A stretch of 41,726 nt of DNA from IMG/VR virus record IMGVR_UViG_3300043395_002142, positions 1 to 41,726 of that record, one strand, 5' to 3'. Both the position numbers and the translations under genes were made by a program. Positions 1 to 41,402 of this stretch are shown one piece after another (the first letter of the stretch is position 1; the number at the start of each line of letters is the position of its first letter). This stretch comes from a virus. Below the pieces are notes generated by a model that did no database searches, had not been told where the DNA came from, and saw nothing but the letters and a program-made list of their open reading frames with translations.

Positions 1-127
1 TGTTGCTATCAAAGTTAAGGCCGTTGGGCAGTGTGACAGCTGTACCGTTAATAGTCAGCACGTCCGAGGAGGCATCGCCAAGGGCCGTGTTGCCGGAAGC
101 GTTCAAGGCTCCAGCGTTGACCGTTGC
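1..127. repeat. 127-base exact direct repeat, first copy
   Basis: This stretch is identical to 37239-37365, and the two copies differ at the very next base (128 C against 37366 G). It begins at the first base of the window. The repeat lies inside the large fibre gene and is in the same reading frame in both places. Its length equals a common assembler k-mer size, so it probably marks the overlap at which a circular genome was closed. A real fibre-module repeat is the alternative. Confidence 0.95.
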
Positions 128-934
128 CGCTGCCACAGTCGTGGCATTGACGGTGCCCACGACGTCCAGGGCTTGGCTTGGAGAGGCCGTACCGATACCC
201 ACTCGGTTAAGAGTTGCGTCAATAACGAGGGTATTGGAGTCGAAATTGAGGCCATTGGGGATACTTGCCGCGCTACTATTGATCGTCAGTGCGTCGGCTG
301 CCTGATCGCCAAGAGTGACACCGCCGTTGAGAGCCGCTGTACCTGCCACGCTCAAAGCGCCGCTACCTGTCAGCGTCACGCTGCCAGAGCTATTCAGCGA
401 AGTAGAACCAGCGATAGTGCCGCTAGTGATGGCGCTACCAGATACCTTGCCAGCCGTTGAGATGACCCCAGAGATATCGGAATCAGTCACCTGTCCTGGG
501 GGAATAGCGTAGTTAATTACTTTCCAATCGCTGTCGCCGCTGTTGTATTGCAGCATGACAACTTGGCGGTTTTTATTCAGCACGAGCGAGGTTTGACCGA
601 TGATAGTGTCAGACCCCGAACGATTGATTGTGATGTTGTTCGTCGCGGCATCAGCTTTGCCATCGACGATTACAAAAATCTGGCCGGGAGATCCTCCGGG
701 CAAGTTGACAGTGACAGGACCAGCTACCGTCAAGTCAGTCACGATTGCGTAATCAGATGCAGCCGAGACAGTGACTGGGCTTGTTGTGGCCTTCCTAATC
801 TCTTGCTTCATTTCGCCAGCAACGGCGGCTTTGTTTCCCAACGCAACCAGGAAGTTGGTCAAGCTTGACCAGTTGAACTCCCCAGATTGCGGGATACTGT
901 ATGTAGTTCCGTCCCAGGTTACGTTAATAGCCAT
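1..934 (-). CDS. large tail fibre protein, N-terminal part (copy A)
   Basis: The reading frame is open from ATG at 934 to the window edge, giving 311 codons. An AAAAGGA ribosome site lies nine bases before the start. The protein opens with MAINVTWDGTTYSIPQSG, nearly the same as the start of the fibre at 38148, and continues with beta-rich repeats of the type NRVGIGTASP..LDVVG that are common in trimeric phage fibres. If base 1 is joined to base 37238 the frame continues without a break into the C-terminal part ending at 35698, giving a protein of about 824 residues. It probably sits at the virion tail and contacts the host surface. It follows the capsid gene, separated by a terminator. The protein lacks a recognisable enzymatic domain. 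Confidence 0.8.
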   Translation of the reverse strand, partial: MAINVTWDGTTYSIPQSGEFNWSSLTNFLVALGNKAAVAGEMKQEIRKATTSPVTVSAASDYAIVTDLTVAGPVTVNLPGGSPGQIFVIVDGKADAATNNITINRSGSDTIIGQTSLVLNKNRQVVMLQYNSGDSDWKVINYAIPPGQVTDSDISGVISTAGKVSGSAITSGTIAGSTSLNSSGSVTLTGSGALSVAGTAALNGGVTLGDQAADALTINSSAASIPNGLNFDSNTLVIDATLNRVGIGTASPSQALDVVGTVNATTVAAATVNAGALNASGNTALGDASSDVLTINGTAVTLPNGLNFDSN

Positions 935-953
935 GAATTAAATTCCTTTTAAG

Positions 954-987
954 AAAAAAGGGCCAGCCCCAACGCATGGGGCCAGCC
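954..987 (-). terminator. intrinsic terminator between capsid and fibre (copy A)
   Basis: Read on the minus strand, GGCTGGCCCCA pairs with TGGGGCTGGCC (two wobble pairs) around a TGCGT loop, followed by C and six T. It lies 16 bases after the capsid stop codon and just before the fibre ribosome site. A hairpin of different sequence but the same design stands at the same place in copy B, which supports a selected function. It probably lowers fibre expression relative to capsid. Confidence 0.8.
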
Positions 988-1003
988 GCAATCAGAAGGT
1001 CAA

Positions 1004-2347
1004 TTAGGATGCGGATTCGTCATTGATACCAGTGATGAGCAAGTTTTGATTGGGCTCTGGAGTGAAAACGTACTCGTCAGCGTAGGATTTGAATTGGTAG
1101 CCAGCTTGGTTTTCCAAGGGACGAATGAGATCGCCGTTGTCATCCATGCCGGGCACTTTAAAGCCTACTTGAGCAGAACCGGAACGCTTCCACGTGTCGG
1201 TGCGGAGAGCGAAGGCATAACCTTCTTTCATGCAGCGATGAGCCTTAATGGTGAGCTTGCCGGTCTGAGTGTAATACTCAATGTCACGGAAACCGTTTTG
1301 CGCTTGGCTAGGCGAATAGGACTTATCATACACGCGAAGACCAGCTTCGGTGTTGGACAAGGTGGACCAGCTACGTGGGTTGACGTACACGTTCACGTCG
1401 CCTTCCAGACCACCACCGTTGACTGCATCGGCCAGGGCTTCTTGTAGGCGGGAAAGCGTGAGCTTAACGCCAGTAGAAGCACCGTTGCTGATATCAGCCA
1501 CGTTACCTTTGAATAGAGGGAATTGCGCGGTATTGACGCCGAACAACGTCCCGCTGTTGGCAAGGATTGCGTGAATGCCGACCATTTCGCCAGCGCCTTC
1601 TTGACCGTCGAAGCAAAGACGGACAGAGCCAGAGCCAGAAACGGCAGAAGGAGCGACAGGCACAAAGTCCACGGTGATGTAACCGTATTTGCTTTGGTAG
1701 CCAGTCAGCTTACCGGAAGCAAGGATGTTGCCGTTTTGGTCAACTTGCTTGACTTTCACGCCGATCATACCAACCCAGAAGCCAGCTGCAAATTCGCCTG
1801 GAGCCAACAAAATTGCTTTAGAAGCAGCGTTGACGCCGTTTACAAAAGCTAAACCGTTTAGCGTTCCAGATCCGTTTGTAAACGAAGCTCCGCGATAGGT
1901 GCCAGAGTAGTATGAAACGTACCCAAGAAGGCTAGGAGACTGGCCCCACATTCTGAAGATTTCTAGGAATTTGTTGTGTGATTTTAGGTTGTTACGCGTG
2001 ATGAACTTCGTGGCTCTAAAGAAAGCTTGTTCATCCCCTAGTGAACGAGAAATTGTTGCGAATGGGAGGATGGAGGGGAGGATGGACACGTACGGAGTAA
2101 CCAAGGTTTGCTTTACAGCCCCCGCAATAGCCGGGTTTATTTCGAAAGCTTCCTGTCCACTTCCTCCTAGCGTGATCCCTGTCTCGGCACTAAGCACAAC
2201 ATCTTCAACGAACTGTGCGCCCACTCGTGCGCCTTCGGCCCAACCAATGTCCATTCCCAAAAGCTGATCTTCCGGGACGAGGTCGTACATATCACCGTAT
2301 ACGTTTTTGAATAGCTCAATGACCTGATTGTTCGAAACGGAAGCCAT
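1004..2347 (-). CDS. probable major capsid protein (copy A)
   Basis: The protein has 447 residues and no signal peptide. The start at 2347 is chosen because GAGAGGTG lies six bases upstream and because the copy B protein begins at the same MASVSNNQ. A longer GTG start at 2356 would overlap that ribosome site. It follows a scaffold-like gene and a small head gene, the classical position for the capsid subunit, and a strong terminator follows it. It is the best conserved protein between copies A and B (about 22 differences in 447 residues by eye), as expected of a shell protein. I do not recognise a named capsid family from motifs alone, so the assignment rests mainly on order, length and conservation. 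It would form the icosahedral head shell. Confidence 0.72.
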   Translation of the reverse strand: MASVSNNQVIELFKNVYGDMYDLVPEDQLLGMDIGWAEGARVGAQFVEDVVLSAETGITLGGSGQEAFEINPAIAGAVKQTLVTPYVSILPSILPFATISRSLGDEQAFFRATKFITRNNLKSHNKFLEIFRMWGQSPSLLGYVSYYSGTYRGASFTNGSGTLNGLAFVNGVNAASKAILLAPGEFAAGFWVGMIGVKVKQVDQNGNILASGKLTGYQSKYGYITVDFVPVAPSAVSGSGSVRLCFDGQEGAGEMVGIHAILANSGTLFGVNTAQFPLFKGNVADISNGASTGVKLTLSRLQEALADAVNGGGLEGDVNVYVNPRSWSTLSNTEAGLRVYDKSYSPSQAQNGFRDIEYYTQTGKLTIKAHRCMKEGYAFALRTDTWKRSGSAQVGFKVPGMDDNGDLIRPLENQAGYQFKSYADEYVFTPEPNQNLLITGINDESAS

Positions 2348-2374
2348 ATGATTCACCTCTCAGTGTTTTAATGA

Positions 2375-2863
2375 TTACTTTGCGATCCAGCAGAAACGCA
2401 CTTCGATCATGCCGCTAGTAAGAGCGTCCAGACCAGCCAGGACGAAACGACCAGCCAAGTTACCAGCTGCGCCTAGTGCGCCTTCGCAAGCCAGAGTAGA
2501 AGCGGTCAAGCCTTCGGCAACGTCAGCACACTCGGCGACGGTTGCACCGTTCGAGCCGCTGTACAGCTTCGCAGACACGCTTAGGAGCTTTTTGGCTTGG
2601 CCGTTCATGTTGACGATGACTGCAAGGGCATCGGTGCCCATAGCAGTTGCGTCAAATGCAGCAACGGCAAACTCAGAAGACGTCCCGAGGAACGAATCAA
2701 TCACGCTTTGGGAAGCGATTGCATCGTACGACTTCAACAGCGCAGTATTCGCGACGATGGGGCTCGAAGCCTTTGCGCCGGTAATCTTGAATTGTAGTAC
2801 AAGCTCATTAGGTACCACTTTTCCAAGTTGGTCGTTGTAATAAAACAAGCTAGAGACTGCCAT
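2375..2863 (-). CDS. small head protein, possible decoration protein (copy A)
   Basis: This 162-residue protein begins MAVSSLFYYNDQLGK and lies between the scaffold-like gene and the probable capsid gene. It is rich in Ala, Gly, Val and Ser and has no transmembrane helix, consistent with a compact beta-rich virion protein. GGAG stands upstream of the ATG at 2863. The copy B homologue has the same length with scattered substitutions. Its place next to the capsid gene suggests a head decoration or stabilising subunit made in large amounts. That role is inferred from position; no diagnostic motif was seen. Confidence 0.6.
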   Translation of the reverse strand: MAVSSLFYYNDQLGKVVPNELVLQFKITGAKASSPIVANTALLKSYDAIASQSVIDSFLGTSSEFAVAAFDATAMGTDALAVIVNMNGQAKKLLSVSAKLYSGSNGATVAECADVAEGLTASTLACEGALGAAGNLAGRFVLAGLDALTSGMIEVRFCWIAK

Positions 2864-2868
2864 GATCT

Positions 2869-3726
2869 TTATCTCCGTTTAAATCGTTTTTCCATTTCTT
2901 GAAATTTCTTTTCAATCGTCATTGGTTCGTCAGCCTTGCCGACTTCTTTCGCGCTCGGTTTGTTTTTCATGACGGTTTTGCTATCCAAAACTCTATCAAC
3001 TTTAGCTTTCATAAGCGAGTCGATTAGAGACTTGGGCAAAATCGACATGGCTTCCTCTGGCGAAAGATCGCTTAGGTATGCGCCAATGTCCTCGGTCATG
3101 CTCCTTTGAGCGTATTGCAAAGCTTGCTTCGCGGGGATTCGTTCTCCCTTGGCTTTAATGCTCGCTTCAATCTGCTCAATGATACGAAGGGCTAGCCTTG
3201 GATTGGCTTTCTTCCCGGCTTCTGCCAATGCTTCCGAGATTTCAGCGTCCAATTCGGCCACGGCTCTTTGCGCCAATTCTTCTTGACGCGCCTTCTTTGA
3301 GCCCTCTTCCAACTCTTGCATCTTACGTTCAAGCTCTTCCCGCCTTTTCCGCTCGGACAAAAGTTCTTTGCGCTCTTGTGGTAACTCCTCGTACTCATAC
3401 TGCTCGATCAGGTAGTTCTCAAACATCTGTCGCGCTTTTTGAGGTCCGAGCTTGTCCACCAAATAGTTAATGTCCCCTTTCTCTAGGGCTTGATTAACTC
3501 TTTGCGCTTCGGTCGAGAGCTTGGCCGCTTCTTGATAACGGCGTGTGCTCTCTTTGGCGTTTTGATAGTCGCGGATTAGCTCGTCATACGAGACTTCGCG
3601 TACCTCGCCGCCAAACTTAACTTTGTGCTTTGCGTTGCGCCAAGGCTCGGCCTCTTGTTTGGCCTGAGTTGCTTGCGCTTCGGTCGGTTGTGCAGGAGCT
3701 TGGACTCCTGCGCTTGCGGTTTCCAT
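2869..3726 (-). CDS. scaffolding-like protein (copy A)
   Basis: The 285-residue protein is very highly charged, mostly helical and coiled-coil-like. A Gln/Ala/Pro-rich N-terminus is followed by long Glu/Lys/Arg stretches around residues 45-185. A basic C-terminal tail ends KKFQEMEKRFKRR. A basic C-terminal helix that binds the coat protein is a known feature of phage scaffolds such as that of P22. AGGAG lies five bases before the ATG. It sits directly upstream of the head genes and downstream of the conserved promoter and leader at 3738-3797. It would guide procapsid assembly and leave the head before DNA packaging. No protease gene was recognised beside it, so it may be released intact. Confidence 0.75.
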   Translation of the reverse strand: METASAGVQAPAQPTEAQATQAKQEAEPWRNAKHKVKFGGEVREVSYDELIRDYQNAKESTRRYQEAAKLSTEAQRVNQALEKGDINYLVDKLGPQKARQMFENYLIEQYEYEELPQERKELLSERKRREELERKMQELEEGSKKARQEELAQRAVAELDAEISEALAEAGKKANPRLALRIIEQIEASIKAKGERIPAKQALQYAQRSMTEDIGAYLSDLSPEEAMSILPKSLIDSLMKAKVDRVLDSKTVMKNKPSAKEVGKADEPMTIEKKFQEMEKRFKRR

Positions 3727-3737
3727 TCTATCTCCTG

Positions 3738-3762
3738 TGGTAGTCTTTCGACGCCGATTTTA
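3738..3762 (-). promoter_or_regulatory. conserved 25-base leader before the scaffold gene
   Basis: These 25 bases are identical to 40962-40986 in copy B although the flanking noncoding DNA differs. The block lies between the -10 element and the scaffold ribosome site and is not coding. It may be an early transcribed region, a translation enhancer or a regulator target. Its function is unknown. Confidence 0.6.
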
Positions 3763-3768
3763 ATCCGC

Positions 3769-3797
3769 ATTATCACATGCTTAATATAATAACACAA
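3769..3797 (-). promoter_or_regulatory. sigma70-like promoter for scaffold and capsid genes (copy A)
   Basis: On the minus strand, -35 TTGTGT (3797-3792) is followed by a 17-base spacer and -10 GATAAT (3774-3769), with TG one base before the -10 (extended -10). The same arrangement occurs in copy B. The -35 lies in the last codons of the 131-aa gene. It would give the head genes their own strong transcription inside the late block. Confidence 0.65.
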
Positions 3798-4176
3798 GAT
3801 CTAGGGGGGCTAGATCATCGGTCGGGGCACTTGTCCCATCTGGGTTACAGAGCCTTGCTACAATCGTTAAACGATTATTCCTGTCGTAATACCATCCAAA
3901 TGATTGCAAGAGATACAGTGAGCTTTGCACCCTCACCGGAATGATGCCTGTCACCGTCTTGCTGGCGGTGATGACTTGAGCCGTTCCGCTCTTGACGTTG
4001 ACGGTCTTCACTTCACTCGCAAAGTTGTCCCCAAACGTCAAACCGCTCCTAAGATTCCTTACAGTCTGCTCGATGAATTGGGCAAGGTACTCAAAAAACT
4101 CGGGGATCTCTTTGCCGGTGTTGGTCTTGCTTATGCGAGTCGTGTCGAGAAGTCGCGTGATTGTAAACTTTGCCAT
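3781..4176 (-). CDS. conserved protein of unknown function between terminase and scaffold (copy A)
   Basis: The protein has 131 residues from the second Met, MAKFTITRLLD, the start shared with copy B. An ATG one codon earlier (4179) is also possible. It begins within the terminase stop. The sequence has a helical N-terminal half (FFEYLAQFIEQTVRNLRSG) and a beta-rich C-terminal half ending LDLVLLY. There is no membrane segment or catalytic motif. Its steady place between the large terminase and the scaffold in both copies suggests a virion or packaging role, perhaps at the head vertex. I do not recognise the family. Confidence 0.6.
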   Translation of the reverse strand: MAKFTITRLLDTTRISKTNTGKEIPEFFEYLAQFIEQTVRNLRSGLTFGDNFASEVKTVNVKSGTAQVITASKTVTGIIPVRVQSSLYLLQSFGWYYDRNNRLTIVARLCNPDGTSAPTDDLAPLDLVLLY

Positions 4177-5582
4177 CACTTCGCTCCAAATCGTTTGGCT
4201 GTTGCGCCAAATTTGTTGGCACTTGGCAGGATATTTATGGGCTTGTCGCTAGGAGGCGTCCAGAAACGGTCCTTGCTTGCGATCTCGCTTGGGTACGGAT
4301 TGCTACGGTTAAGCCCTCTAACAGCATACATTAGGGCCGCGATTGCATCACAGTGTCCTGTCGAGAGTGTTCGCTCGAAGTCTGTATGGTTTTTGTTGAA
4401 CATACCAGACTGACAGGTTGTGATAGTCAGTTTGCAGTGTGACGCTATCTTGATCTTGTTTTGAGTGAAGCGATTAGCAAGCCCGTTTATGCTCGCTTCC
4501 CAGTCGCTTTTCTGTGGCAAGGCAACGCTCATTTTGAAGGTACGTCCGAGATCAACGGCAAGTTGTCCTGGCACGTCGGCATAGTAAACATGCTCCTTAC
4601 GATTGGGCTGTAAATATTTGCCGGTCCATTTGGACCGTATGTCATTAACGATGACTTCCGTTGGCGTGTTCGGCCCCCACCATAGTTCGTCGAATACGAA
4701 GTCGGTTGCTTCCAGGTATCCGTATCCAACCACAACGGCCACGGTAAAATCGCGCACTCCGCCCCAGTCGATATAGATCTCGTAATTGCAGTATTCTGGG
4801 AGATCAAATTCTCCAATGTGACGAGCAGGATCAAAATCAGGGATAACGACAACACTCTTGTCACGGATAATTTGATTAAGATATTCGCGCTTAAAATCAT
4901 CGGTGTGCCTCCCACCTGCTCGTCTTACACATGCCTCATACTGCGACTGACTTAGAGCCTTGTTATCGTCGATTGTGAACGAATAGAAAGAATTGTTGAT
5001 TTGCGCCCTCGCCATCGTTTCGGTAATGAAAGGATGATCGGGCACTTTGGGCAAGGTGGTGAGAAATATGATTTTCCCTGCATCGGAATGAGTCAAAGCA
5101 GGGCCGATATCAGAGCGCAATGACTCAAGGTAATCATCTGGGTTGGCGTCGACGATCTCTTCGACAAATACGCCTTGCAGCGTCTTCCCTCGCTGACTGT
5201 TTGTATTCAAATCGAATCCGCCCATCACGAGTTCGGACGTACCAATATACCACTTGCCCTCTGACTTGGACGGTCGAATCAGACCAGGAGGCGCATCGGC
5301 AATGATATGCCTAAGCCTTGGCGTCACGATCTCTCTTGTCTGCTTGAGTGTTGGGCCAATGATAAGAAAGCACCGATCATGCCAGCGTAGGCACTGCTCT
5401 ATGGCAATCAAGACGCCCAGGTGACTCTTGCCAAACTGTCTGGCGCAAAGGACAACCGCCTCATCAATATCGGGAGGCAGGTTGTATATGGCGTCATATA
5501 TGCTTTGTTGTTGGGGCCATAGTTTATACTTCAAATTTCCGCGTGACCATAACTCCGCTGTTAGCTTGTTCAAACTCGTCAT
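4176..5582 (-). CDS. terL: terminase large subunit
   Basis: This 468-residue packaging motor cuts concatemeric DNA and pumps it into the procapsid. The N-terminal ATPase has a Walker A-like CARQFGKS at about residues 46-53, Walker B GVFVEE at 137-142 and the coupling motif TTLP at 175-178. The C-terminal RNase H-like nuclease has candidate metal ligands D272 (YIDWGG), D336 and D412 (GHCDAIAALMYA). The length is normal for the family. The start overlaps the preceding small gene by 59 bases and has only a weak ribosome site, so translation is probably coupled. The end touches the 131-aa gene. Copy B holds the C-terminal 107 residues of a relative at 41403-41726. Confidence 0.93.
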   Translation of the reverse strand: MTSLNKLTAELWSRGNLKYKLWPQQQSIYDAIYNLPPDIDEAVVLCARQFGKSHLGVLIAIEQCLRWHDRCFLIIGPTLKQTREIVTPRLRHIIADAPPGLIRPSKSEGKWYIGTSELVMGGFDLNTNSQRGKTLQGVFVEEIVDANPDDYLESLRSDIGPALTHSDAGKIIFLTTLPKVPDHPFITETMARAQINNSFYSFTIDDNKALSQSQYEACVRRAGGRHTDDFKREYLNQIIRDKSVVVIPDFDPARHIGEFDLPEYCNYEIYIDWGGVRDFTVAVVVGYGYLEATDFVFDELWWGPNTPTEVIVNDIRSKWTGKYLQPNRKEHVYYADVPGQLAVDLGRTFKMSVALPQKSDWEASINGLANRFTQNKIKIASHCKLTITTCQSGMFNKNHTDFERTLSTGHCDAIAALMYAVRGLNRSNPYPSEIASKDRFWTPPSDKPINILPSANKFGATAKRFGAK

Positions 5583-5745: not shown

Positions 5746-5935
5746 TGGCCTCTATCCAATCTGCCGCCGCTAAGAGCCATGCAGCAAAAGCGCGGCACTC
5801 CCGCGCTGAGATCCATTCGGCTTTAACTGAAACACGGTAAGGGCCTTGGGGCCATCCTTTTGATAGAACCATATGCGTTGTATCCATGACGTTGCCTTTG
5901 TTGCTCGGTCGATGCACCCGCGCTAGTGGTCCCAT
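5705..5935 (-). CDS. small protein of unknown function
   Basis: The protein has 76 residues from ATG at 5935, which overlaps the small terminase stop (TGATG). AAAGGA stands five bases before it. An internal ATG at 5887 with its own AAAGG is an alternative and would give 60 residues, MDTTHMVLSKGW onwards. The C-terminal part (ECRAFAAWLLAAADWIEANE) is an amphipathic helix rather than a clear membrane span. The function is unknown. It lies between the two terminase genes. Confidence 0.5.
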   Translation of the reverse strand: MGPLARVHRPSNKGNVMDTTHMVLSKGWPQGPYRVSVKAEWISARECRAFAAWLLAAADWIEANEKSGEQVLGADL

Positions 5936-6348
5936 CACGTTCCTTTCGGTTTTTTGCCGTACCTCTTAATAAGCGCCTCGATCTCATGATCGGGCACGTC
6001 GGATAGATTGATCTCGGTCACTTTCTGTTCGACCTTCTCAGATTGGCCTAGGTACTGCTTGCCTAGCCAGATCATCATCACGCGGTCGCCGTTTTGAGCC
6101 CGTCTAAACTGGCGACGACGAAGCGAACATTTGCCGCCAGCCGAGTATTTTTTATACACTTCCGAAAAACTCTTGTTATAATGCTCGGTTACGCGCCTAA
6201 CAAGAGTCTCTTCGTCGATCTCAAACCATCCCGCGATCTCTTCCTGTGTACATTGCATCTGGCAACATTTTTCAAAATCGCGAAAATCTATGTCCTTGAT
6301 TTTGGCACCTGTCTCGCCTTCGGCCTTGGGCCGTTTTGTGACGCCCAT
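5935..6348 (-). CDS. terS: terminase small subunit-like protein
   Basis: The protein has 137 residues. A helix-turn-helix region spans about residues 33-58 (QCTQEEIAGWFEIDEETLVRR), followed by a basic stretch (KCSLRRRQFRRAQNGD) and MMIWLGKQYLGQ. This combination is known from phage small terminase and terminase-associated DNA-binding proteins. It would recognise packaging sites and load the large subunit. AAAGGAG lies seven bases before the ATG. It is the first gene of the leftward late block and faces a rightward gene across 81 bases, so the late promoter should be just upstream. Confidence 0.8.
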   Translation of the reverse strand: MGVTKRPKAEGETGAKIKDIDFRDFEKCCQMQCTQEEIAGWFEIDEETLVRRVTEHYNKSFSEVYKKYSAGGKCSLRRRQFRRAQNGDRVMMIWLGKQYLGQSEKVEQKVTEINLSDVPDHEIEALIKRYGKKPKGT

Positions 6349-6429: not shown

Positions 6430-6657
6430 ATGTACTATGGATTTGAGTTCTCAAGTAGCAACCCACGTACTAAAAGGCCGATGGATGAATACGGCCAGCG
6501 AGTGGGCTATTATCATCGTTTCAACCACAAGGTTGACGTCCATGCGTGGGTCAAGAAGAGCAAATACCGAATCTATGTGCCTAGTACAGATCCAGAATTG
6601 AGGAGCTTAAAGCACCGAGGCATTATCGGCGCGTTCACTATCGACGGAGATAAATAA
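6430..6657 (+). CDS. small basic protein of unknown function
   Basis: The 75-residue protein is rich in Tyr, Arg and Lys (MYYGFEFSSSNPRTKRPMDE). Its central part resembles a short beta-sheet domain (VDVHAWVKKSKYRIYVPS). AAGG lies eight bases before the ATG. Its last base overlaps the first base of the Dps-like gene (TAATG), so the two are probably made together. No family was recognised. It may bind nucleic acid, but that is only a guess from its charge. Confidence 0.55.
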   Translation: MYYGFEFSSSNPRTKRPMDEYGQRVGYYHRFNHKVDVHAWVKKSKYRIYVPSTDPELRSLKHRGIIGAFTIDGDK

Positions 6658-7067
6658 TGGCTAGTTTAATCAATTTAGCAACGGTTCTGAGGGCTGGTCA
6701 AGTTTATGCACACCATGCCCACAATGTTTGCTCTGGCCCCCAGTTCTTCGAGGACCACGCTTTTTTTGGTTCTGTGTATGCGAAATATGAGTCTGACTAT
6801 GATGACGTTATTGAGCGTCATATTGGATCAACTGGCGACAAGCCCAATACCATTGAGTTACTTGGCCGGGCTTTAGATTTAGTACAGGGCCTTGGGGATG
6901 ATTATTTCCAGGGGATCTTGATTGTGGACAAAAGCATTTGCTCGATCTGCAAGACCATGTGCGATTCTGGGGAGCTATCGGAAGGCACCAAGCAGCTAAT
7001 CGGCGAGATCTGCAATCAAGCCGAGATGCGAAAGTACAAGATTGTACAAAGAACATCGCGGGATTAA
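6657..7067 (+). CDS. Dps-like ferritin-fold protein
   Basis: The protein has 136 residues. The N-terminal half reads AHHAHNVCSGPQFFEDHAFFG followed by SDYDDVIERHIG. His22, His34, Asp49 and Glu53 have spacings of 12, 15 and 4, exactly those of the E. coli Dps ferroxidase ligands His51, His63, Asp78 and Glu82. Only the fifth ligand (Asp67) is replaced, by Gly38. Dps proteins form 12-subunit cages that oxidise and store iron and shield DNA from peroxide. This one is shorter than usual and lacks the Lys-rich N-terminal DNA-binding tail, so iron and peroxide handling seems likelier than DNA coating. It is cotranscribed with the small gene before it. A phage could use it to protect DNA during infection. 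Confidence 0.8.
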   Translation: MASLINLATVLRAGQVYAHHAHNVCSGPQFFEDHAFFGSVYAKYESDYDDVIERHIGSTGDKPNTIELLGRALDLVQGLGDDYFQGILIVDKSICSICKTMCDSGELSEGTKQLIGEICNQAEMRKYKIVQRTSRD

Positions 7068-7116: not shown

Positions 7117-7155
7117 ATGGGCACGTCGGCAATGTCGCCATGCAGGAGGTGTCCC

Positions 7156-7326
7156 GTGTTTAAAATTTCTAAGGAATTTTGCGAAGAGTTAAATTGTCAA
7201 GTATGGTCGGTGAGTCGACGTGATGGTTTTATAATTAAAGACGGTGTGACTGCTTATAATTTTTTGCTCGATGATTGGGATAAAGCCATAGATTGCGCAA
7301 AAAAGTTAGAACTTCAATGTTCATAA
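7156..7326 (+). CDS. small protein of unknown function
   Basis: The protein has 56 residues from GTG at 7156, chosen because a perfect AGGAGGT ribosome site lies just upstream. An ATG at 7117 would place the ribosome site inside the gene. The product (MFKISKEFCEELN...) is acidic, has three Cys and no membrane segment. It has its own promoter at 7088 and terminator at 7331, so it is a single-gene unit that is probably made strongly and early. The function is unknown. Small phage proteins of this kind are often host-takeover factors, but nothing in the sequence proves that. Confidence 0.6.
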   Translation: MFKISKEFCEELNCQVWSVSRRDGFIIKDGVTAYNFLLDDWDKAIDCAKKLELQCS

Positions 7327-7330
7327 CAGA

Positions 7331-7352
7331 AGCCCCGAAAGGGGCTTTTTTT
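7331..7352 (+). terminator. intrinsic terminator
   Basis: AGCCCC (7331-7336), a GAAA tetraloop and GGGGCT (7341-7346) are followed by a run of T to 7352. It closes the single-gene unit ending at 7326. Confidence 0.9.
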
Positions 7353-11274: not shown

Positions 11275-11347
11275 CCCCAAAACTAACACTCCCGCATAAT
11301 TCCATGGCACCATGACTATATAACTTTTAGTTTATATGGGGGTCGCC

Positions 11348-11830
11348 ATGTTCAAACGTGCCCTACTATTTATTGCGTTTTTGCAAAGCTCCATGGCCTT
11401 GGCTAATGACTGCTACAAGGCCGACATAGGAACGTGCGCCGTTGAAAGGAGTATGCTCGCAGCAACCAACAATTTTCGCGCACAAAACGGCCTCCCGCCG
11501 TTGCAATACAAGCGGGAGTTGCAATGGTCGGCGCGTAAATGGTCGGAAAGTATGGCGGCGACGGGCCGGATCAGCCACGATGGTTTCCCAACAACGCGAA
11601 ATCAAACTATTGTCCTTGAATTCCCTGCGTCAAATCTCCAGGTCCAAGGTGAAAATGTTGCATGGTTCTCAGGATACAAACCAGGAGATTTCGGACAATT
11701 CTTTGTGGGGCTTTGGATTGGTAGCGCCGGACATAGGGCCAATATGCTCCGAAACTGGCGCTATGTTGGGATGGGATACGCCCGAGATAGCAAAGGTGGA
11801 CATTACGCTACACAAAACTTTAGTTGGTAA
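11348..11830 (+). CDS. secreted CAP-domain protein (first of two)
   Basis: The protein has 160 residues from ATG at 11348, which follows a GGGGG ribosome site; the ATG at 11336 has none. Residues 1-19 form a signal peptide (MFKRALLFIAFLQSSMALA), so the product is exported to the periplasm. The rest is a CAP (SCP/PR-1) domain: ATNNFRAQNGLPPLQY at 39-54, His77 (SHDG), Glu102 (GENVAW) and His129 (AGHRANML), the usual cavity residues, and a C-terminal YATQNFS. CAP proteins bind lipids or peptides, and bacterial members act in the envelope, but their roles are poorly known. It lies next to the endolysin gene, suggesting an envelope or lysis role. Confidence 0.85.
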   Translation: MFKRALLFIAFLQSSMALANDCYKADIGTCAVERSMLAATNNFRAQNGLPPLQYKRELQWSARKWSESMAATGRISHDGFPTTRNQTIVLEFPASNLQVQGENVAWFSGYKPGDFGQFFVGLWIGSAGHRANMLRNWRYVGMGYARDSKGGHYATQNFSW

Positions 11831-11918
11831 AAAGGTTGTCTCTCTCGGTTTGGCCGAGCCCCTGTGGGTAAATTGTGTATTAGACGACCTTGATATGATT
11901 GTACCAGAAATAGAAAAA

Positions 11919-11957
11919 CCCCGCTTGAGCGGGGAAAACGGCGTCCGTTTTTTTTTC
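11919..11957 (+). terminator. tandem hairpins with a T run before the endolysin
   Basis: CCCCGC/GCGGGG (11919-11934) is preceded by A residues and would terminate minus-strand transcripts. Directly after it, AAAACGG (11935-11941), CGT and CCGTTTT (11945-11951) with nine T form a plus-strand terminator. Both lie between the CAP gene and the endolysin ribosome site. Reaching the endolysin would need readthrough or antitermination, so this may delay lysis. Confidence 0.65.
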
Positions 11958-11987
11958 AATTACATCGACATTGAGGAGATATTGCAA

Positions 11988-12377
11988 ATGTTTTCTACAC
12001 GCTCAAAATCCAAGCTAATGGCTTGTCATGCTGATTTACAAAGGCTTTTCGAGGAAGTTTGTAAAACACACGATTGCACCATATTAGAAGGGCATCGGGA
12101 TAAAAAGCGCCAGGATGAGGCGTATAAATCCGGGCTATCTAAGCTCAAGTTTCCTCAATCAAAGCACAACCGATATCCTTCTCATGCGGTAGACGTTATC
12201 CCTTACCCTATCGACTTTTCAGATGTGAAGCGCATCTATGCGTTTGGCTGGTTTGTCCTAGAGACTGCCAAAAAAATGGGCATCAAGATAAGGTGGGGAG
12301 GCGACTGGGACGGAGACGGTGATACCAAAGACCAGAAATTTAATGATCTGGTCCATTTTGAGTTGGTGCAATCGTAA
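11988..12377 (+). CDS. M15-family peptidase, probable endolysin
   Basis: The protein has 129 residues from ATG at 11988, which follows GAGGAG. Longer starts would run through the CAP gene and the terminators. It carries the VanY/L-Ala-D-Glu peptidase signature: ILEGHRDKKRQDEAY at 32-46, then SHAVDV with zinc ligands His66 and Asp69, and LVHFEL with His123. There is a WGGDWDGDGD stretch before the last His. Such single-domain enzymes cut the peptide part of peptidoglycan, as the T5 endolysin does. There is no signal peptide, so a holin must let it out; several small membrane proteins of the phage could do this. A strong terminator follows. Confidence 0.88.
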   Translation: MFSTRSKSKLMACHADLQRLFEEVCKTHDCTILEGHRDKKRQDEAYKSGLSKLKFPQSKHNRYPSHAVDVIPYPIDFSDVKRIYAFGWFVLETAKKMGIKIRWGGDWDGDGDTKDQKFNDLVHFELVQS

Positions 12378-16976: not shown

Positions 16977-18632
16977 TTAGGCTGAAGGCGTTAGAGCCGA
17001 AGTGTAAGTCAGAAGCGAAACAGTATTTTTGATTTTTACGTTTCGGGTAACAACTCCGGCAATGTGTGCATAGTTGTTTCCAACTTGTAAAAATGCCGAA
17101 CCGCTTGGACCAGTAACAACGTACGTTGAAGCGTCATTCAAAACAGAGAAAGTACAGTTGTTGGCTCCCATGCTTGCATTGGCTCCAAGCAAATTAACGC
17201 CGTTTCCAACTGTTGCGTTGTTCGTGAAAGAACTATATCCGGCAAATACCAAACCAGAGGCCGCAATTCTAATAATGTCGGAACCATTGACGTTCACATA
17301 TGTGTTGACGATTTGGGCATATGTGGCTGTCGTCATGTCAAGAAACCGAGTACCACCATCAACCGTCAGATAGCTGTAGGTGTAGAAGTTGCCGCCTGAT
17401 AAAACGACATGAGTACCGCCAGTACCAGCAGCCGAAGCCATGGCGACTCTGCTCAATCCCACGTAAAGCGTACCGTTGCTTCCAACGTTGAAAATTTTTG
17501 AAGTCGTTGCGCTGTTTACGTTTTGCAGGTAGCAACCGCTAATTTGTACCTCTGTCGCGGTCGTCCCACTAATAGAAAGCAGAGCGGTTGTTGCATCGGC
17601 GCTAGTCATTAGCAAGTTTGAAATGCTTACCCTGTTATTGAGAGCGTTTACGTTAGTTCCGGTGATCGTATGCTGCCCAGTCAAACGTGTGGACACGTTA
17701 TCCATAGGGTTACACATCCCCTGTAAATGAACAGCACCGGGGATTGTGAGGTTTTCGGTGTAAACACCTGGAGGAATACGAATGATATAGCTGTTGCTAA
17801 TGCTTGGATTTGTACAAAGCGCAATACATCCAGCGATAGTGCTGGCATCGATGCCAACGGTCAAAACGCGAATGTTCGACATGGATAGGCCAGGAGGCGC
17901 AGCCCATTGCAAGTCGCCGCGCAAGAATTGCGATACTAGACCGCCCGTAATAGACACGGTTTGAGATGGGCCGTCATATGCTAATGGTGCTGTTGCTGCG
18001 ACGACGCCGCTAGAACCTGTATCCCCTTTTGGTCCTTGGGGGCCTGTTGGACCAGTTTCGCCTTGGATACCTTGAATTCCTTGCGGCCCTTGATCGCCTT
18101 GAATCCCCTGTGGCCCCTGGTCGCCCTGGTCCCCTTTAGGCCCTTGATCGCCTTGCGAACCTTGTGGACCTTGTGCCCCTGCCGGGCCAGCTTCTCCTTG
18201 CGGCCCTGCCGGACCAGCTACTCCTTGGATACCTTGGGGGCCAGCCGCGCCCGGCTCACCTTGCGGCCCTGCCGGGCCAGCGTCTCCCTGTGGGCCTTGC
18301 GGTCCAGCCGGTCCAGCGACACCTTGCAACCCTTGAGGGCCAGCCGGTCCAGGTTCACCTTGGGGACCAGCCGGACCAGCCGGGCCAGCGTCTCCCTGAA
18401 TACCCTGTGGGCCTTGTGGTCCCGGATCGCCCTGAGGCCCCTGTGGTCCAGGCTCTCCCTGTGGGCCTTGTGGTCCTGGTTCACCGCTACCCGTTCCATA
18501 ATGGACAACTGTTCCATCGTCGTCTTTGGATACTAATTTTTTGGAAACAGAATCGACGTATAAAACCGATGTACCAGCCGAAGGAGTTGGGACACCTGCA
18601 CCCGCTTCTGTTGCGATTTTTATCAAAGCCAT
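16977..18632 (-). CDS. collagen-like tail fibre protein
   Basis: The protein has 551 residues. After an N-terminal head that shares the lYVD..s..l..kdDdG motif with its upstream neighbour, residues 50-208 contain about 53 unbroken Gly-X-Y triplets, mostly GPQ, GPA and GEP, which should form a trimeric collagen helix. The remaining part, with repeating short strands such as [20 protein letters not shown], looks like a right-handed beta-helix of the kind found in phage spikes. The protein is thus a long stalk with a binding or enzymatic spike. No catalytic residues were identified. Its ATG overlaps the preceding stop. Confidence 0.88.
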
Positions 18633-33450: not shown

Positions 33451-33909
33451 TCATTTTGCCATAGTTCTAAAAACAACTACCCAGGTCGTACCGTGTTTTG
33501 CTGACCCGATCGCCACGTTGTCATCGCTCGTAATGATATTTCGTGAACGAAGATCCCGCATCCAGCGACCTACGGCCATTTGCGCCTCAAGAAAACCGCA
33601 AGCAATCAACTCAGCTTGAGCTTCAGTCCCGCAATCCCGGGCCCGTGTCTGAAAAGTCGAGTTGTCAGTGCCTTGATGCTGACACATTCGAGATTCATGC
33701 ATATCTAGCGCGTGTTTTTCCGCCGCGCAATTCAATGCAATCGTCGATACAAGCAAAGGTAGCTTGTACAACTCGCGCATGTCATTGACAGCAATTTGCA
33801 TCGTATCAAAGCCAGGATAAGGCGTTGGTGTTGGATCGGCTGGCGGTACTGGCTGCCATTGGCCGAACGCAAGAGATGACGAAAAAATGAGGGGGAATAT
33901 GATTTTCAT
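33451..33909 (-). CDS. secreted CAP-domain protein (second of two)
   Basis: The protein has 152 residues. Residues 1-16 form a signal peptide (MKIIFPLIFSSSLAFG). A Pro-rich linker follows (PVPPADPTPTPYPG). The domain then shows the CAP pattern: MQIAVNDMRELYKLPLLV, a His at 78 (CQHQG), a Glu near 97 (GTEAQAE), VGRWMRDLRSRNIITSDDN and a C-terminal TTWVVVF strand. The second cavity His of the H-R-x-N motif is replaced, so the metal-binding site seems altered. It is encoded inside the late virion block, unlike the first CAP gene. It could act in the periplasm or be carried on the virion. Confidence 0.7.
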   Translation of the reverse strand: MKIIFPLIFSSSLAFGQWQPVPPADPTPTPYPGFDTMQIAVNDMRELYKLPLLVSTIALNCAAEKHALDMHESRMCQHQGTDNSTFQTRARDCGTEAQAELIACGFLEAQMAVGRWMRDLRSRNIITSDDNVAIGSAKHGTTWVVVFRTMAK

Positions 33910-35697: not shown

Positions 35698-38148
35698 TTA
35701 AGCGATTCGTGTAGCAACAATCTTGCCTCTGGCTGCTGCTGTACCAGAGGATAAGGTAATAGCTTGCCTTAGGGTTACGGACTTGGTTCCGTCTGTAGCT
35801 AAAACCAGACCGGGAATACTGCTGGCAGACCCTCCCCTAATTGCCGCGCCTTGTGTGACAAAAGCAACAACGCCCGAATTATCCCCGTTCGTTGCAATAG
35901 TTGGCGTAAATGTACTATCGTTATATTTTGCGTTTGCCATAAATATAGCGCCAGCATTTACCCCGGCTGCTTCGATATTCCAAACATAAAAATCAACTCG
36001 CCACAAACCTGCACTTGTTATTGGTAATGTCGCAAGCGTAAGGGTTACACCCCCAGTTGTGCTTGTGGTAAGTTCAGAGCCCGTAACACTTAATTGTTCT
36101 CCAACATAACCGCTAGGTATCACAACTCCACTTGTTCGGCCCTGGATTTGGACACCGTTTCCGCTTGTGTTGGCATTGATGGTGTCAACCGTCGGCGTCC
36201 CACCAATCACGCTGCTACCGCTAACAGATAGCGGAAAGTTTGTCCCCACCGCCGGAGCGTTAAGCGCATAGTTAATGCTTGCCGAAGTGAACACACCGGG
36301 AATGTTTGGCATGGTGATTTGAATGACACCGGCGTTGGTGATCGACATTAGAAATCCGGCTGGAGGCGTGTCGCCACTCACCTGATACGAAATGTCATAG
36401 ATATTGTCACCGCCTCGTACGAATTGGGCTTGGACATAGAAACGGAGATCTGTCGTCGCGTCAATGTATACCCAACCAGCAAGCCCGCCAGCGTCATAGG
36501 AGGATACGTCCTGGACGGTCTGGTTTGGTGTGTTGTTGAGAAGAGAGATTTGCGTCCTAGCATTGGCGCCGCCGACGACAACACCGCGCTTGGGAGCGAC
36601 ATAAAAGGTAGTCGTGCTAGAAGCCACACCAACCGGGACAGATACATATCCGATAGTGCTAGGCTCAGTCAGCGAGTAGGTTCCAGCAACACTATCGCTC
36701 AAGAAATAGACAGAGCCAGCCGTCAATCCGGTCAAACCCGAGATTTCGCCGCTAAGTGTCAACTCAAAGTTGTTCGCGTCAACCACACGCGATACGACGC
36801 CGACGACTTCCGCAGCTGCCGCAGAGGTTGCAATCGCTTTGGTGTATGTAGCGCCGTTCAAATAAAGCACGTTGCCGACAACAAAACCGTGTGACGCCTG
36901 ATTGATCTTATCAACCGATCCGCCTCCGCCAATCCCCGACCATGCCCCGGCTGCGTACCCTTCAAATGCCGTCAAATCGGAGTTGTACCGAATCATTCCG
37001 TTGACTGGCGTTCCTGGTCGTTCCGCCGTAGTGCCAGAAGCAACTTTGAACGAACCAGTGCCGTTCTGTGTTGCATTACCCGCAATCGTCAGCGTGTCGC
37101 TGGTCGCATCACCTAGGACAGTGTTGCCGTTGACAGTTAGATCAGTGCTGACTTTTGCTGCGCCTACTACGTCAAGAGCTACGGTTGGGGCTGCGATACC
37201 GACGCCCACTCGGTTGTTGGCTGCGTCGATGACAAGCGTGTTGCTATCAAAGTTAAGGCCGTTGGGCAGTGTGACAGCTGTACCGTTAATAGTCAGCACG
37301 TCCGAGGAGGCATCGCCAAGGGCCGTGTTGCCGGAAGCGTTCAAGGCTCCAGCGTTGACCGTTGCGCCTTGTACTGTCGTACCTTTGACCGTTCCGGCAA
37401 CGTCGAGTTCTACTGTCGGCGATCCGCTGCCAACACCAACTCTATTATTAGCGGCATCAATATACAGTGTGCCGAAGTCAAAACTTAAATTATTGGGAAT
37501 ATCGACGGAACCCGAGTTGATGACGAGCCCATCTGCGCTTTCATTTCCAAGTGTCACCCCACCCGTGAGAATTGCTTGCCCGCTTGTGACGATGTTGCCG
37601 CTAGTGTTGATTGCGGTGGTGCCGCCAATTGTACCGCTAGTAATAGCGCTTCCGCTTACTTTGCCCGCTGTCGAGATAGTGCCGCTGATGTCAGCGTCTC
37701 TAACTTGGCCGGGAGGAATCATGTAATTGATGAGTTTCCAATCACTGTCCCCAGCGTTGTATTGAAGCCAGACCACTTGTCTGTCTTTATTCATCACGAG
37801 CGTTGCTTGGCCCTTAATTGTTTCAGAGCCAACGGAGCTAATGGTGATGTTATTAGTCGCTGCATCAGCTTTACCGTCAACAATCGCAAAAATGCGACCA
37901 TTTACACCAAGCGGCAAAGTAACAGATACAGGTCCGGGAACAGTTAAATCTGTAACAACGGCAAAATCAGCCGTATCGGAAATGGTAACAGGGCTTACTG
38001 TCGCCTTGCGGATCGACTGCTTCATCTCATCAGCAACCGCCGCTTTGTTGCCCAGCGCCACAAGGAAATTGGTGAGGCTAGGCCAGTTAATTTCCCCAGA
38101 TTGCGGGATTGAATATGTTGTGCCGTCCCATGTGACGCTGATTGCCAT
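35698..38148 (-). CDS. large tail fibre protein (junction copy A/B)
   Basis: The protein has 816 residues from ATG at 38148, after GGAG; the ATG at 38172 lacks a site. MAISVTWDGTTYSIPQSGEI begins the N-terminus. Blocks of about 68 residues with GLNFDSNTLVIDAANNRVGV and LDVVG repeat, followed by TPVNGMIRYNSDLTAFEGYA and a C-terminal beta domain. The start (37366-38148) belongs to copy B, while the part below 37239 would also be the C-terminal part of the copy A fibre. The protein as written may therefore be a hybrid. It is the first of the attachment genes and follows the capsid terminator. Confidence 0.85.
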   Translation of the reverse strand: MAISVTWDGTTYSIPQSGEINWPSLTNFLVALGNKAAVADEMKQSIRKATVSPVTISDTADFAVVTDLTVPGPVSVTLPLGVNGRIFAIVDGKADAATNNITISSVGSETIKGQATLVMNKDRQVVWLQYNAGDSDWKLINYMIPPGQVRDADISGTISTAGKVSGSAITSGTIGGTTAINTSGNIVTSGQAILTGGVTLGNESADGLVINSGSVDIPNNLSFDFGTLYIDAANNRVGVGSGSPTVELDVAGTVKGTTVQGATVNAGALNASGNTALGDASSDVLTINGTAVTLPNGLNFDSNTLVIDAANNRVGVGIAAPTVALDVVGAAKVSTDLTVNGNTVLGDATSDTLTIAGNATQNGTGSFKVASGTTAERPGTPVNGMIRYNSDLTAFEGYAAGAWSGIGGGGSVDKINQASHGFVVGNVLYLNGATYTKAIATSAAAAEVVGVVSRVVDANNFELTLSGEISGLTGLTAGSVYFLSDSVAGTYSLTEPSTIGYVSVPVGVASSTTTFYVAPKRGVVVGGANARTQISLLNNTPNQTVQDVSSYDAGGLAGWVYIDATTDLRFYVQAQFVRGGDNIYDISYQVSGDTPPAGFLMSITNAGVIQITMPNIPGVFTSASINYALNAPAVGTNFPLSVSGSSVIGGTPTVDTINANTSGNGVQIQGRTSGVVIPSGYVGEQLSVTGSELTTSTTGGVTLTLATLPITSAGLWRVDFYVWNIEAAGVNAGAIFMANAKYNDSTFTPTIATNGDNSGVVAFVTQGAAIRGGSASSIPGLVLATDGTKSVTLRQAITLSSGTAAARGKIVATRIA
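37239..37365. repeat. 127-base exact direct repeat, second copy
   Basis: It matches window bases 1-127 exactly. Bases 37239 and 1 fall at the same codon position of the fibre frame. Bases further up (37366 onwards) diverge sharply from 128 onwards, while everything below 37239 has no second copy in the window. This marks the branch between two related sequences. Confidence 0.95.
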
Positions 38149-38160
38149 AATAGCTCCAAG

Positions 38161-38194
38161 TAAAAGAGGCAAGCCCCCACATTGGAGGCTTGCC
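38161..38194 (-). terminator. intrinsic terminator between capsid and fibre (copy B)
   Basis: On the minus strand, GGCAAGCCTCC (38194-38184) pairs with GGGGGCTTGCC (38178-38168) around a five-base loop and is followed by TCTTTTA. It stands at the same place as the copy A hairpin, with different but complementary arms. Confidence 0.75.
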
Positions 38195-38210
38195 GGATTC
38201 AGAAGGTGAC

Positions 38211-39554
38211 TCAGGAGGCCGATTCGTCGTTAATGCCAGTGATGAGCAAGTTTTGGTTCGGTTCCGGGGTGAAGATGTACTCATCGGCGTAGGATTTGAA
38301 TTGGTAACCTGCTTGATTTTCAAGCGGTCTTATCAAATCGCCGTTATCGTCCATCCCTGGTACTTGAAACCCAACTTGAGCCGACCCCGATCTTTTCCAA
38401 GTATCAGTCCGAAGCGCAAATGCGTAGCCCTCTTTCATGCAACGGTGCGCTTTAATTGTGAGTTTTCCGGTTTGGGTATAATACTCAATGTCCCGGAAAC
38501 CATTTTGCGCTTGACTTGGGCTGTAAGACTTGTCGTACACGCGAAGACCTGCTTCGGTGTTCGACAGCGTAGACCAGCTGCGCGGGTTAACGTATACATT
38601 AACGTCCCCTTCAAGTCCACCGCCATTTACTGCATCGGCAAGAGCGTCTTGGAGGCGAGGCAAGGTCAGCTTAACGCCAGTGGAGGCACCATTGCTGATA
38701 TCGGCCACGTTACCCTTAAATAGCGGGAATTGCTGGCTGTTGACGCCGAACAAGGTACCGCTGTTTGCCAAGATTGCATGAATGCCGATCATCTCGCCAG
38801 CGCCTTCCTGGCCGTCAAAGCACAGACGGACAGAGCCAGAGCCAGACACGGCGCTAGGAGCGACAGGCACAAAGTCGACAGTAATATAGCCGTAGCGAGA
38901 GTTGTAACCAGTTAGCTTACCAGAGGCCAAGATTGCGCCAGTGGAGCTAACTTGTTTCACTTTCACGCCGATCATACCAACCCAGAAGCCAGCGGCAAAT
39001 TCGCCGGGAGCCATCAAGATTGCTTTAGAGGCAGAGCTCACGCCGTTGGTGAAAGCGATACCGTTGAGCGTACCAGATCCGTTAGTGAAAGAAGCGCCGC
39101 GATAGGTGCCGCTGTAGTAGGAAACATAGCCGAGAAGGCTCGGAGATTGTCCCCACATTCTAAAGATTTCTAGGAATTTGTTGTGTGATTTCAGGTTGTT
39201 ACGGGTTATGAACTTGGTAGCGCGAAAGAACGCTTGTTCATCACCAAGCGACCTGGAAATGGTTGCGAAAGGAAGAATGGAGGGAAGGATTGACACGTAA
39301 GGAATGACAAGAGTTTGCTTAACCGCGCCAGCGATAGCGGGGTTAATCTCGAAAGCCTCTTGCCCAGAGCCGCCTAGGGTAATCCCGACCTCTGCGCCAA
39401 GCACAACGTCCTCGACGAATTGAGCACCGACTCTCTGGCCTTCTGCCCAACCGATGTCCATCCCCAAAAGTTGATCTTCGGGAACGAGGTCATACATATC
39501 GCCGTATACGTTTTTGAATAGCTCGATTACCTGATTATTAGAAACGGAAGCCAT
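38211..39554 (-). CDS. probable major capsid protein (copy B)
   Basis: This is a 447-residue homologue of the capsid at 1004-2347, with the same length and only about 22 replacements by eye, for instance in the loops around residues 180-215 (FTNGVSSASKAIL, KQVSSTGAILAS). Codons differ far more than residues, showing long separation under purifying selection. AGGAG lies eight bases before the ATG at 39554, which confirms the start chosen in copy A. Neighbours and order match copy A. It is followed by a hairpin terminator. Confidence 0.72.
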   Translation of the reverse strand: MASVSNNQVIELFKNVYGDMYDLVPEDQLLGMDIGWAEGQRVGAQFVEDVVLGAEVGITLGGSGQEAFEINPAIAGAVKQTLVIPYVSILPSILPFATISRSLGDEQAFFRATKFITRNNLKSHNKFLEIFRMWGQSPSLLGYVSYYSGTYRGASFTNGSGTLNGIAFTNGVSSASKAILMAPGEFAAGFWVGMIGVKVKQVSSTGAILASGKLTGYNSRYGYITVDFVPVAPSAVSGSGSVRLCFDGQEGAGEMIGIHAILANSGTLFGVNSQQFPLFKGNVADISNGASTGVKLTLPRLQDALADAVNGGGLEGDVNVYVNPRSWSTLSNTEAGLRVYDKSYSPSQAQNGFRDIEYYTQTGKLTIKAHRCMKEGYAFALRTDTWKRSGSAQVGFQVPGMDDNGDLIRPLENQAGYQFKSYADEYIFTPEPNQNLLITGINDESAS

Positions 39555-39581
39555 ATAAAAATCTCCTAGTGTTTAATCAAA

Positions 39582-40070
39582 TTACTTTGCGATCCAGCAA
39601 AAGCGAACTTCGAGGAGGCCGCTGGTAAGAGCGTCAAGGCCGCTAAGGACAAAACGTCCAGCCAAGTTGCCTTGAGCGCCGAGAGCGCCTTCACAAGCCA
39701 AGGTGGAAGCAGTCAAACCTTCTGCAACGTCAGCACACTCGGCAACGGTTGCGCCGTTAGAGCCGCTGTAAACTTTTGCAGAGACAGAAAGAAGTTTTTT
39801 CGCTTGGCCGTTCATGTTGACGATAACAGCGTAGGCATCGGTGCCCATCGCGGTTGCGTCAAATGCAGCGACGAGAAATTCACTGGACGTGCCGAGAAAG
39901 CTATCGATAACGGCTTGGGAAGCGACGGCATCGAAGCTTGTCAGGTGTGCAGTGTTGGCAACCACTGGCGATACGGCTTTCGCGCCAGTGATTTTCCATT
40001 GTAGTACCAACTCATTTGGTACGACTTTTCCCAACTGATCGTTGTAATAAAACAGACTAGAAACGGCCAT
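39582..40070 (-). CDS. small head protein, possible decoration protein (copy B)
   Basis: This 162-residue homologue of the copy A protein at 2375-2863 has scattered substitutions (for example LQWKITGAKAVSPVV against LQFKITGAKASSPIV). Equal length and conserved place between scaffold and capsid support a real virion gene. No diagnostic domain was recognised, so the decoration role is inferred from context. Confidence 0.6.
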   Translation of the reverse strand: MAVSSLFYYNDQLGKVVPNELVLQWKITGAKAVSPVVANTAHLTSFDAVASQAVIDSFLGTSSEFLVAAFDATAMGTDAYAVIVNMNGQAKKLLSVSAKVYSGSNGATVAECADVAEGLTASTLACEGALGAQGNLAGRFVLSGLDALTSGLLEVRFCWIAK

Positions 40071-40072
40071 GA

Positions 40073-40951
40073 TTAACCTCGACGTTTAAATTTATTTTCC
40101 ATTTCAGCAAATTTCTTTTCGATTGTCATCGGCGCGTCATCCTTGCGAGCCACAGACTGCGCGGGTTTAGACCTTGCCGATGTCCTGGTATCTAGCACCC
40201 TGTCTACTTTTGCTTTCATCAGACTATCGACGAGAGACTTGGGCAAAATGGACATAGCCTCCTCTGGCGAGAGGTCTGCTAGGTATGCGCCAATGTCTTC
40301 AGTGACCGACTTAGTAGCGTACTTGAGCGCTTCCTTAGCGGGGATTCTTTCGCCCTTAGCCTTTAAGTTCGCTTCAATCTGCTCAATAATGCGTAGCGCT
40401 AGTCTGGGATTGGCTTTCTTTCCTGCCTCTTTCAAAGCGTCAGAAATCTCAGCGTCCAATTCGGCCACGGCTTGAGCCGCCAACTGTTCTTGTCGCGTCC
40501 TGGTTTCTCGTTCCTCGATGTCCTTCATCTTGCGCTCTAGCTCCTCACGGCGTTTCCGCTCGCTTAGTAGCTCCTTGCGCTCTTCAGGTAGCTCGTCGTA
40601 CTCCATTTGTTCGATGAGATAATTCTCAAACATCTGGCGAGCCTTTTGCGGCCCTAACTTATCGACCAAAAACTTAACGTCCCCTTTCTCAAGGGCTTGG
40701 TTAACGCTTTGGGCTTCATTTGCTAGTCGAGCTGCTTCCTGATACCGCCGTGTACTTTCTTTCGCATTTTGGTAGTCCCTTATGAGCTCGTCATAGGACA
40801 CCTCCCGCTCTTGCCCGCCAAACTTAACTTTGTGTTTGGCTTGCTTCCACGGCTCTTGTTGCTCCGCTGGAACGGTCGCCTTTTGCTCTGGCGCTTGGTT
40901 TTGCGGAGTTGTCGGTTGCGGGGATTGGCCCCCGCTTACACTGGTTTCCAT
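40073..40951 (-). CDS. scaffolding-like protein (copy B)
   Basis: This 292-residue homologue of the copy A scaffold is seven residues longer. The difference is mainly in the Gln/Pro-rich N-terminus (QSPQPTTPQNQAPEQKATVP), as expected of a disordered segment. The charged helical body and the basic end KFAEMENKFKRRG are kept. Its ribosome site follows the conserved leader at 40962-40986. The role is to shape the procapsid, as for copy A. Confidence 0.75.
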   Translation of the reverse strand: METSVSGGQSPQPTTPQNQAPEQKATVPAEQQEPWKQAKHKVKFGGQEREVSYDELIRDYQNAKESTRRYQEAARLANEAQSVNQALEKGDVKFLVDKLGPQKARQMFENYLIEQMEYDELPEERKELLSERKRREELERKMKDIEERETRTRQEQLAAQAVAELDAEISDALKEAGKKANPRLALRIIEQIEANLKAKGERIPAKEALKYATKSVTEDIGAYLADLSPEEAMSILPKSLVDSLMKAKVDRVLDTRTSARSKPAQSVARKDDAPMTIEKKFAEMENKFKRRG

Positions 40952-40961
40952 CGTATCCCCT

Positions 40962-41022
40962 TGGTAGTCTTTCGACGCCGATTTTATGTCCGAATTATCG
41001 CACCGTTAAAATAATAAAACAA
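40962..41022 (-). promoter_or_regulatory. promoter and conserved leader before the scaffold gene (copy B)
   Basis: On the minus strand, -35 TTGTTT (41022-41017), a 17-base spacer and -10 GATAAT (40999-40994) with an upstream TG correspond base for base in spacing to copy A. The 25-base block 40962-40986 is identical in both. Spacer and flanks differ, so the retained elements are likely functional. Confidence 0.7.
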
Positions 41023-41401: not shown

Positions 41402-41402
41402 T

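Follow-up and report, generated by a model that had tools for sequence, protein, structure and literature searches.

Is the Dps of a phage simply a cellular Dps carried in a viral genome? The question is raised by a gene at 6657..7067 (+) of a 41,726-base stretch of DNA, called the window here, which is one complete IMG/VR virus record. A first reading made from the letters alone (the sequence-only reading) took its product for a Dps-like ferritin encoded by a phage. Dps in phages is itself already known and common; one bacterial Dps query alone matches at least 168 cultured-phage records. For the Dps and Mn-catalase of Gratiaviridae and other phages of the gut, a role against oxidative stress has been proposed (PMC8008677); these are likewise ferritin-like enzymes of phages, likened to the present protein by description. 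A Dps-like protein of Lactobacillus phages has been read in a similar sense (PMC6669764). What seems to be new here is a separate branch of phage Dps with an altered metal site, and the open-access text that we searched holds no published description of it.

The phage and its three-gene unit

The window is a tailed phage from an environmental metagenome. It has a P22-like portal (Pfam 3.2e-10; phrog_156 4.8e-17), RecT (7e-51), a terminase large subunit at 4176..5582 (-) (phrog_2, E=1.6e-27) and a terminase small subunit-like gene at 5935..6348 (-) (phrog_309, E=2.2e-4). It also has an SU10-like capsid protein, whose Pfam match (1.5e-4) is just under the curated cut-off. The claim that the gene is phage-encoded is borne out, with TerL, portal, capsid and RecT in the same virus record. 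The sequenced phage nearest by TerL is CP017838, whose host is Silvanigrella aquatica (capsid 43%, portal 36%, TerL 31%); the Dps branch described below is not represented in it.

The Dps-like gene has an ATG start and encodes 136 aa. A Shine-Dalgarno-like GGAG, read directly at 6646..6649 (+), lies 7 nt 5' of the ATG. Upstream is a 75-aa ORF at 6430..6657 (+), and its stop overlaps the Dps start (TAATG). Downstream a 69-aa ORF at 7117..7326 (+), with an alternative shorter GTG start at 7156, is probably on the same transcript and is followed by an intrinsic terminator at 7328..7349 (+). Because of the TAATG overlap and the terminator after the third small ORF, we read the Dps gene as one of three genes in a small unit that diverges from terS-terL. 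A sigma-70 scan found no + strand promoter 5' of the unit, and Rfam gave no match above threshold near the Dps gene. The 75-aa and 69-aa ORFs belong to no known family and their homologues were found only in a contig that matches the window at 98-100%, so conserved operon partners offer no clue to function.

Several other features of the window deserve mention. Positions 1-4508 and 37239-41726 hold two head modules that are 73.8% identical (capsid, 162-aa, scaffold-like and 132/151-aa genes). In the record IMGVR_UViG_3300047546_001570, window 37238 is followed directly by window 1 (99.8-100%). The genome unit is therefore probably about 37.2 kb long, and the last 4.5 kb would be a variant module that arose either as a true tandem duplication or from chimeric assembly with a relative. 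Proteins with CAP/SCP domains (PF00188) are encoded at 11336-11830 (+) and 33451-33909 (-), with E of 2.4e-14 and 1.1e-6. Both have N-terminal signal-like stretches; one gene has an endolysin-like ORF as its neighbor, and the other belongs to the tail region. That ORF, 311 aa at 11442-12377 (+), overlaps the CAP gene in another frame and has an endolysin-like C-terminal stretch (VanY-like by eye); it has no Pfam match, so the real start codon probably lies further downstream. In the tail-region protein at 16977-18632 (-) there is a long GPQ/GPA repeat of the collagen kind (Pfam Collagen, 2.7e-26). The capsid protein at 1004-2356 (-) is similar to SU10_MCP. Phage SU10 has an entry in BFVD for a Dps-like DNA-binding protein, and E. 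coli podophages commonly encode Dps; phages with this type of capsid may therefore be unusually frequent carriers of Dps.

Homology and fold

The window sequence alone gives only distant matches. Its E against Pfam Ferritin is 0.23 (11.8 bits, below the cut-off of 24.5), against Listeria Dps 0.01 and against phrog_3636 8e-6. A profile built from 23 branch members does much better against solved structures, reaching MrgA at E = 7.7e-11 and Deinococcus Dps2 at 4.6e-10. PF00210 is matched at E<=0.1 by 20 of the 23 relatives (best 1.5e-9), and the member at L040 exceeds the PF00210 cut-off. All 23 aligned members also match phrog_3636, annotated 'DNA binding protein' (best 1.2e-15), which means that databases hold relatives under a vague name. 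The scores are only moderate, 27 bits over residues 3-67 for the window, so phrog_3636 is either a family broader than the branch or one that merely adjoins it.

The predicted structure points the same way. AlphaFold2, run as a monomer on the 23-member alignment, gave pLDDT 96.2 and pTM 0.90, with helices at 4-24, 30-59, 65-77, 83-104 and 109-134. These correspond to A, B, BC, C and D, so the predicted fold is the four-helix bundle that the sequence-only reading required, with the BC helix of Dps. Foldseek against the PDB ranks nothing but Dps proteins at the top (for MrgA, TMq reaches 0.84 and rmsd is 2.2-2.5) at modest E-values, the best being 1.7e-3. In BFVD the top match is a protein of an uncultured phage that already bears the name Dps. 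We conclude from profiles and model that the ORF is a member of the Dps-type mini-ferritin family (PF00210). Its fold with the BC helix and its His/His/Asp/Glu spacing are those of bacterial Dps such as MrgA (2chp), Listeria Dps (2iy4) and E. coli Dps, at about 18% identity to MrgA. BFVD also holds four uncultured-phage ORFs with structural Dps-like domains (A0A6J7WPK9, A0A6J7XDU5, A0A6J7WIS1 and A0A6J5LAB8_2), named prohead protease or ParB/sulfiredoxin; these models may possibly represent fusions that tie Dps to head assembly.

A separate branch of phage Dps

The first relative of the window gene, at locus L003, opened the family, and a two-row profile search of viral contigs then returned 37 related loci. 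These and the window make up the set of 38 sequences used below. A scan of 84,980 bacterial and archaeal genomes returned two loci, L040 and L041; each comes from a Bacteroidota MAG and lies there within a cluster of phage head and tail genes. The branch is apparently phage-only. No cultured-phage member was found with the window, L003, L019 or L031 as queries, L003 giving only a match at E = 0.5. One member, L019 (5983-6726), has a C-terminal extension of about 110 aa and no cultured-phage match.

Against the branch profile the members score 143-192 bits, bacterial Dps at most 47 and cultured-phage Dps at most 44. In a quick tree with 29 Bacteroidota Dps proteins aligned to the profile, a branch with support 99 splits the phage rows from the bacterial rows; this tree has long branches and a short protein, and samples cellular Dps from Bacteroidota only. 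Recent acquisition from a host is not supported, because all Dps in 396 Bacteroidota genomes, apart from the phage-like L040, proved distant (at most 47 bits) and because of the 99-supported phage side of the tree. The closely related members fall in four groups with dN/dS of at most 0.17 wherever it is measurable, so these relatives are under strong purifying selection. The window gene has no close yet non-identical relative that we could find, so selection is measured in other members of the family.

The Dps proteins of cultured phages are of another kind. We compared seven: E. coli ECBP2 (Suseptimavirus), Privateer and 7-11 (Grimontviridae), Lactobacillus Semele (Harbinvirus), Streptomyces Gilson, Synechococcus S-SRM01 and Bacteroides BS162P1. 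They share the four metal ligands of the branch, but all seven keep the HW motif and six have Asp or Glu at position 67, the exception being the Gly of cyanophage S-SRM01. We therefore regard them as the cellular type. Several of their genes adjoin nucleotide-metabolism genes, as ordinary-type Dps does in the Proteus, E. coli and Salmonella phages that we looked at.

Residues of the metal site

The four core ferroxidase ligands are His22 (codon 6720..6722, +), His34 (6756..6758, +), Asp49 (6801..6803, +) and Glu53 (6813..6815, +), at the positions of E. coli Dps His51, His63, Asp78 and Glu82. Their 12/15/4 spacing and numbering, as first proposed, are correct in the 136-aa translation. None of the four varies among the 38 phage sequences or among the 29 Bacteroidota proteins. 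The motif H-x11-H-x14-D-x3-E occurs once among all six-frame ORFs of the window, and with shuffled residues 0.04 occurrences are expected. The full list of residues invariant in the 38 is R12, H19, H22, F30, D33, H34, F36, Y41, D49 and E53.

Around these ligands the branch differs from bacterial Dps. Asn23 (6723..6725, +) replaces the Trp52 of cellular Dps; the branch has Asn in 33 of 38 members, His or Leu in the other five and Trp in none, whereas Trp is found in 29/29 bacteria. Gly38 (6768..6770, +) stands at the position of E. coli Asp67, a substitution that the sequence-only reading had already seen. The branch has Gly there in 36 members and Ala in two, and the bacteria have Glu in 25, Gln in three and Gly in one. 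Asp33 (6753..6755, +) is invariant in the branch and mostly Leu or Lys in bacterial Dps. The acid at 67 and the Trp after the first His are common in Dps, not strictly required, and with Gln or Gly in 4/29 bacterial proteins we do not count the loss of Asp67 as excluding Dps membership. It does mean that calling the site intact was too strong: the four ligands are strictly conserved, but the acid and the neighboring Trp are gone from the whole branch. Glu45 was considered as a ligand that compensates for the lost Asp67, but we make no such claim; an acid is there in 15/29 bacterial Dps and is absent in three phage members.

The absence of the Lys-rich N-terminal tail was correctly seen. Helix A opens the protein at residue 4 and just two residues follow helix D; neither terminus has a Lys/Arg-rich tail, and the pI is 5.3.

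The proposed role and its alternatives

We believe that this phage mini-ferritin is probably an oligomeric ferroxidase that detoxifies iron and peroxide in the cytosol during infection. Dps proteins bind Fe(II) at the dimer interface, using two His of one subunit and the Asp and Glu of its mate. The analysis shows the gene, its homology, its fold, the invariant ligands and the purifying selection in relatives; the oligomer, its chemistry, its timing and its benefit to the phage we infer. A Dps-like oligomer, by homology a dodecamer, would assemble with ferroxidase sites across the two-fold interface, where one subunit would bind Fe(II) through H22 and H34 and its mate through D49' and E53'. 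The iron would be oxidized with H2O2 or O2 and the ferric product stored in the internal cavity. Free Fe(II) and peroxide would then drop in the infected cell, and Fenton chemistry would do less harm to the DNA and proteins of the phage. Since it is acidic and lacks a basic tail, the protein is probably a soluble sink for iron and peroxide and not a nucleoid protein. Iron sequestration and peroxide removal are plausible roles, and both were earlier proposed for gut-phage Dps (PMC8008677).

The changes around the site could be taken further, to mean that the Dps fold now serves as a scaffold or for binding a metal (Zn, Mn or Fe), with efficient ferroxidase chemistry lost. The branch-wide loss of Asp/Glu67 and of Trp agrees with this, as do the invariant Asp33 and His19. 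However, strict conservation of four core ligands would be unexpected if the chemistry were gone, and position 67 varies in bacterial Dps too and is Gly in S-SRM01. We consider such a loss rather unlikely. The changed second-shell residues might make the reaction slower or give it another course; since Asp67->Gly and Trp->Asn run throughout the branch, the rate, the oxidant or the metal may differ.

Gene neighborhoods bear on a second alternative, a ferritin on or with the tail or capsid that carries iron to the next cell (the ferrojan-horse idea) or protects packaged DNA. The kin nearest to the window in the tree, grouped with weak support (84), are L003, L005, L006, L010, L011, L033, L034 and L040. 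In these eight and in L041 the Dps gene lies among tail-fiber, minor-tail, lysozyme or capsid genes. Two virion proteins of the window, of 312 aa and 1003 aa, are common to L033 and L041, and its capsid protein to L041 and L003; in these three the Dps gene is in the tail-fiber region, so it has moved within one virion lineage. One outside precedent is the ferritin-like gp217 of the Vi01-like phage Sajous1, detected by mass spectrometry of the phage (PMC10892097); it too is a phage ferritin-like protein in the phage proteome, identified by Phyre2 only and likened here by description. The Dps-like domains in BFVD ORFs named prohead protease also fit. Against this, the window gene is in its own divergent unit outside the structural operon, and other members are in replication modules (the L018 group with exonuclease and DNA polymerase, L031 with DnaB); many further neighbors have no known family. 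A late-operon position is no proof of incorporation, and mutants in the iron-uptake genes tonB and feoB did not block infection (PMC10892097). We find incorporation into the virion improbable.

The two ideas can be combined. A phage-only clade might have rebuilt the ferroxidase center (Trp->Asn, Asp67->Gly, new Asp33 and His19) for a task specific to the virus, such as loading iron into the virion or protecting it. The gene's surroundings in the nearest kin, which are genes for tail, lysis and head, are consistent with this, and we give it little credence.

A role like that of E. coli Dps, in which the protein would bind the DNA of the phage so as to condense or shield it, is very unlikely. 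The label of phrog_3636 and the position next to terS suggest it, but the label is probably inherited from the naming of Dps, and the protein has no basic tail and a pI of 5.3. A chance ORF or misread frame, which the sub-threshold Pfam matches of single sequences might suggest, is refuted by the rarity of the motif, the 38-member family under purifying selection and the confident fold, and its probability is negligible.

Conclusions

The usual view of Dps in phages is that its genes were borrowed from hosts. The branch described here is deeply separated, with about 40 environmental phage loci and, among the scanned bacterial genomes, only two phage-like MAG loci. Its consistently altered site, kept under purifying selection, offers a concrete set of proteins with which to ask whether phages need iron and peroxide control of their own. 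The same proteins also serve the question of whether ferritins can be part of virions.
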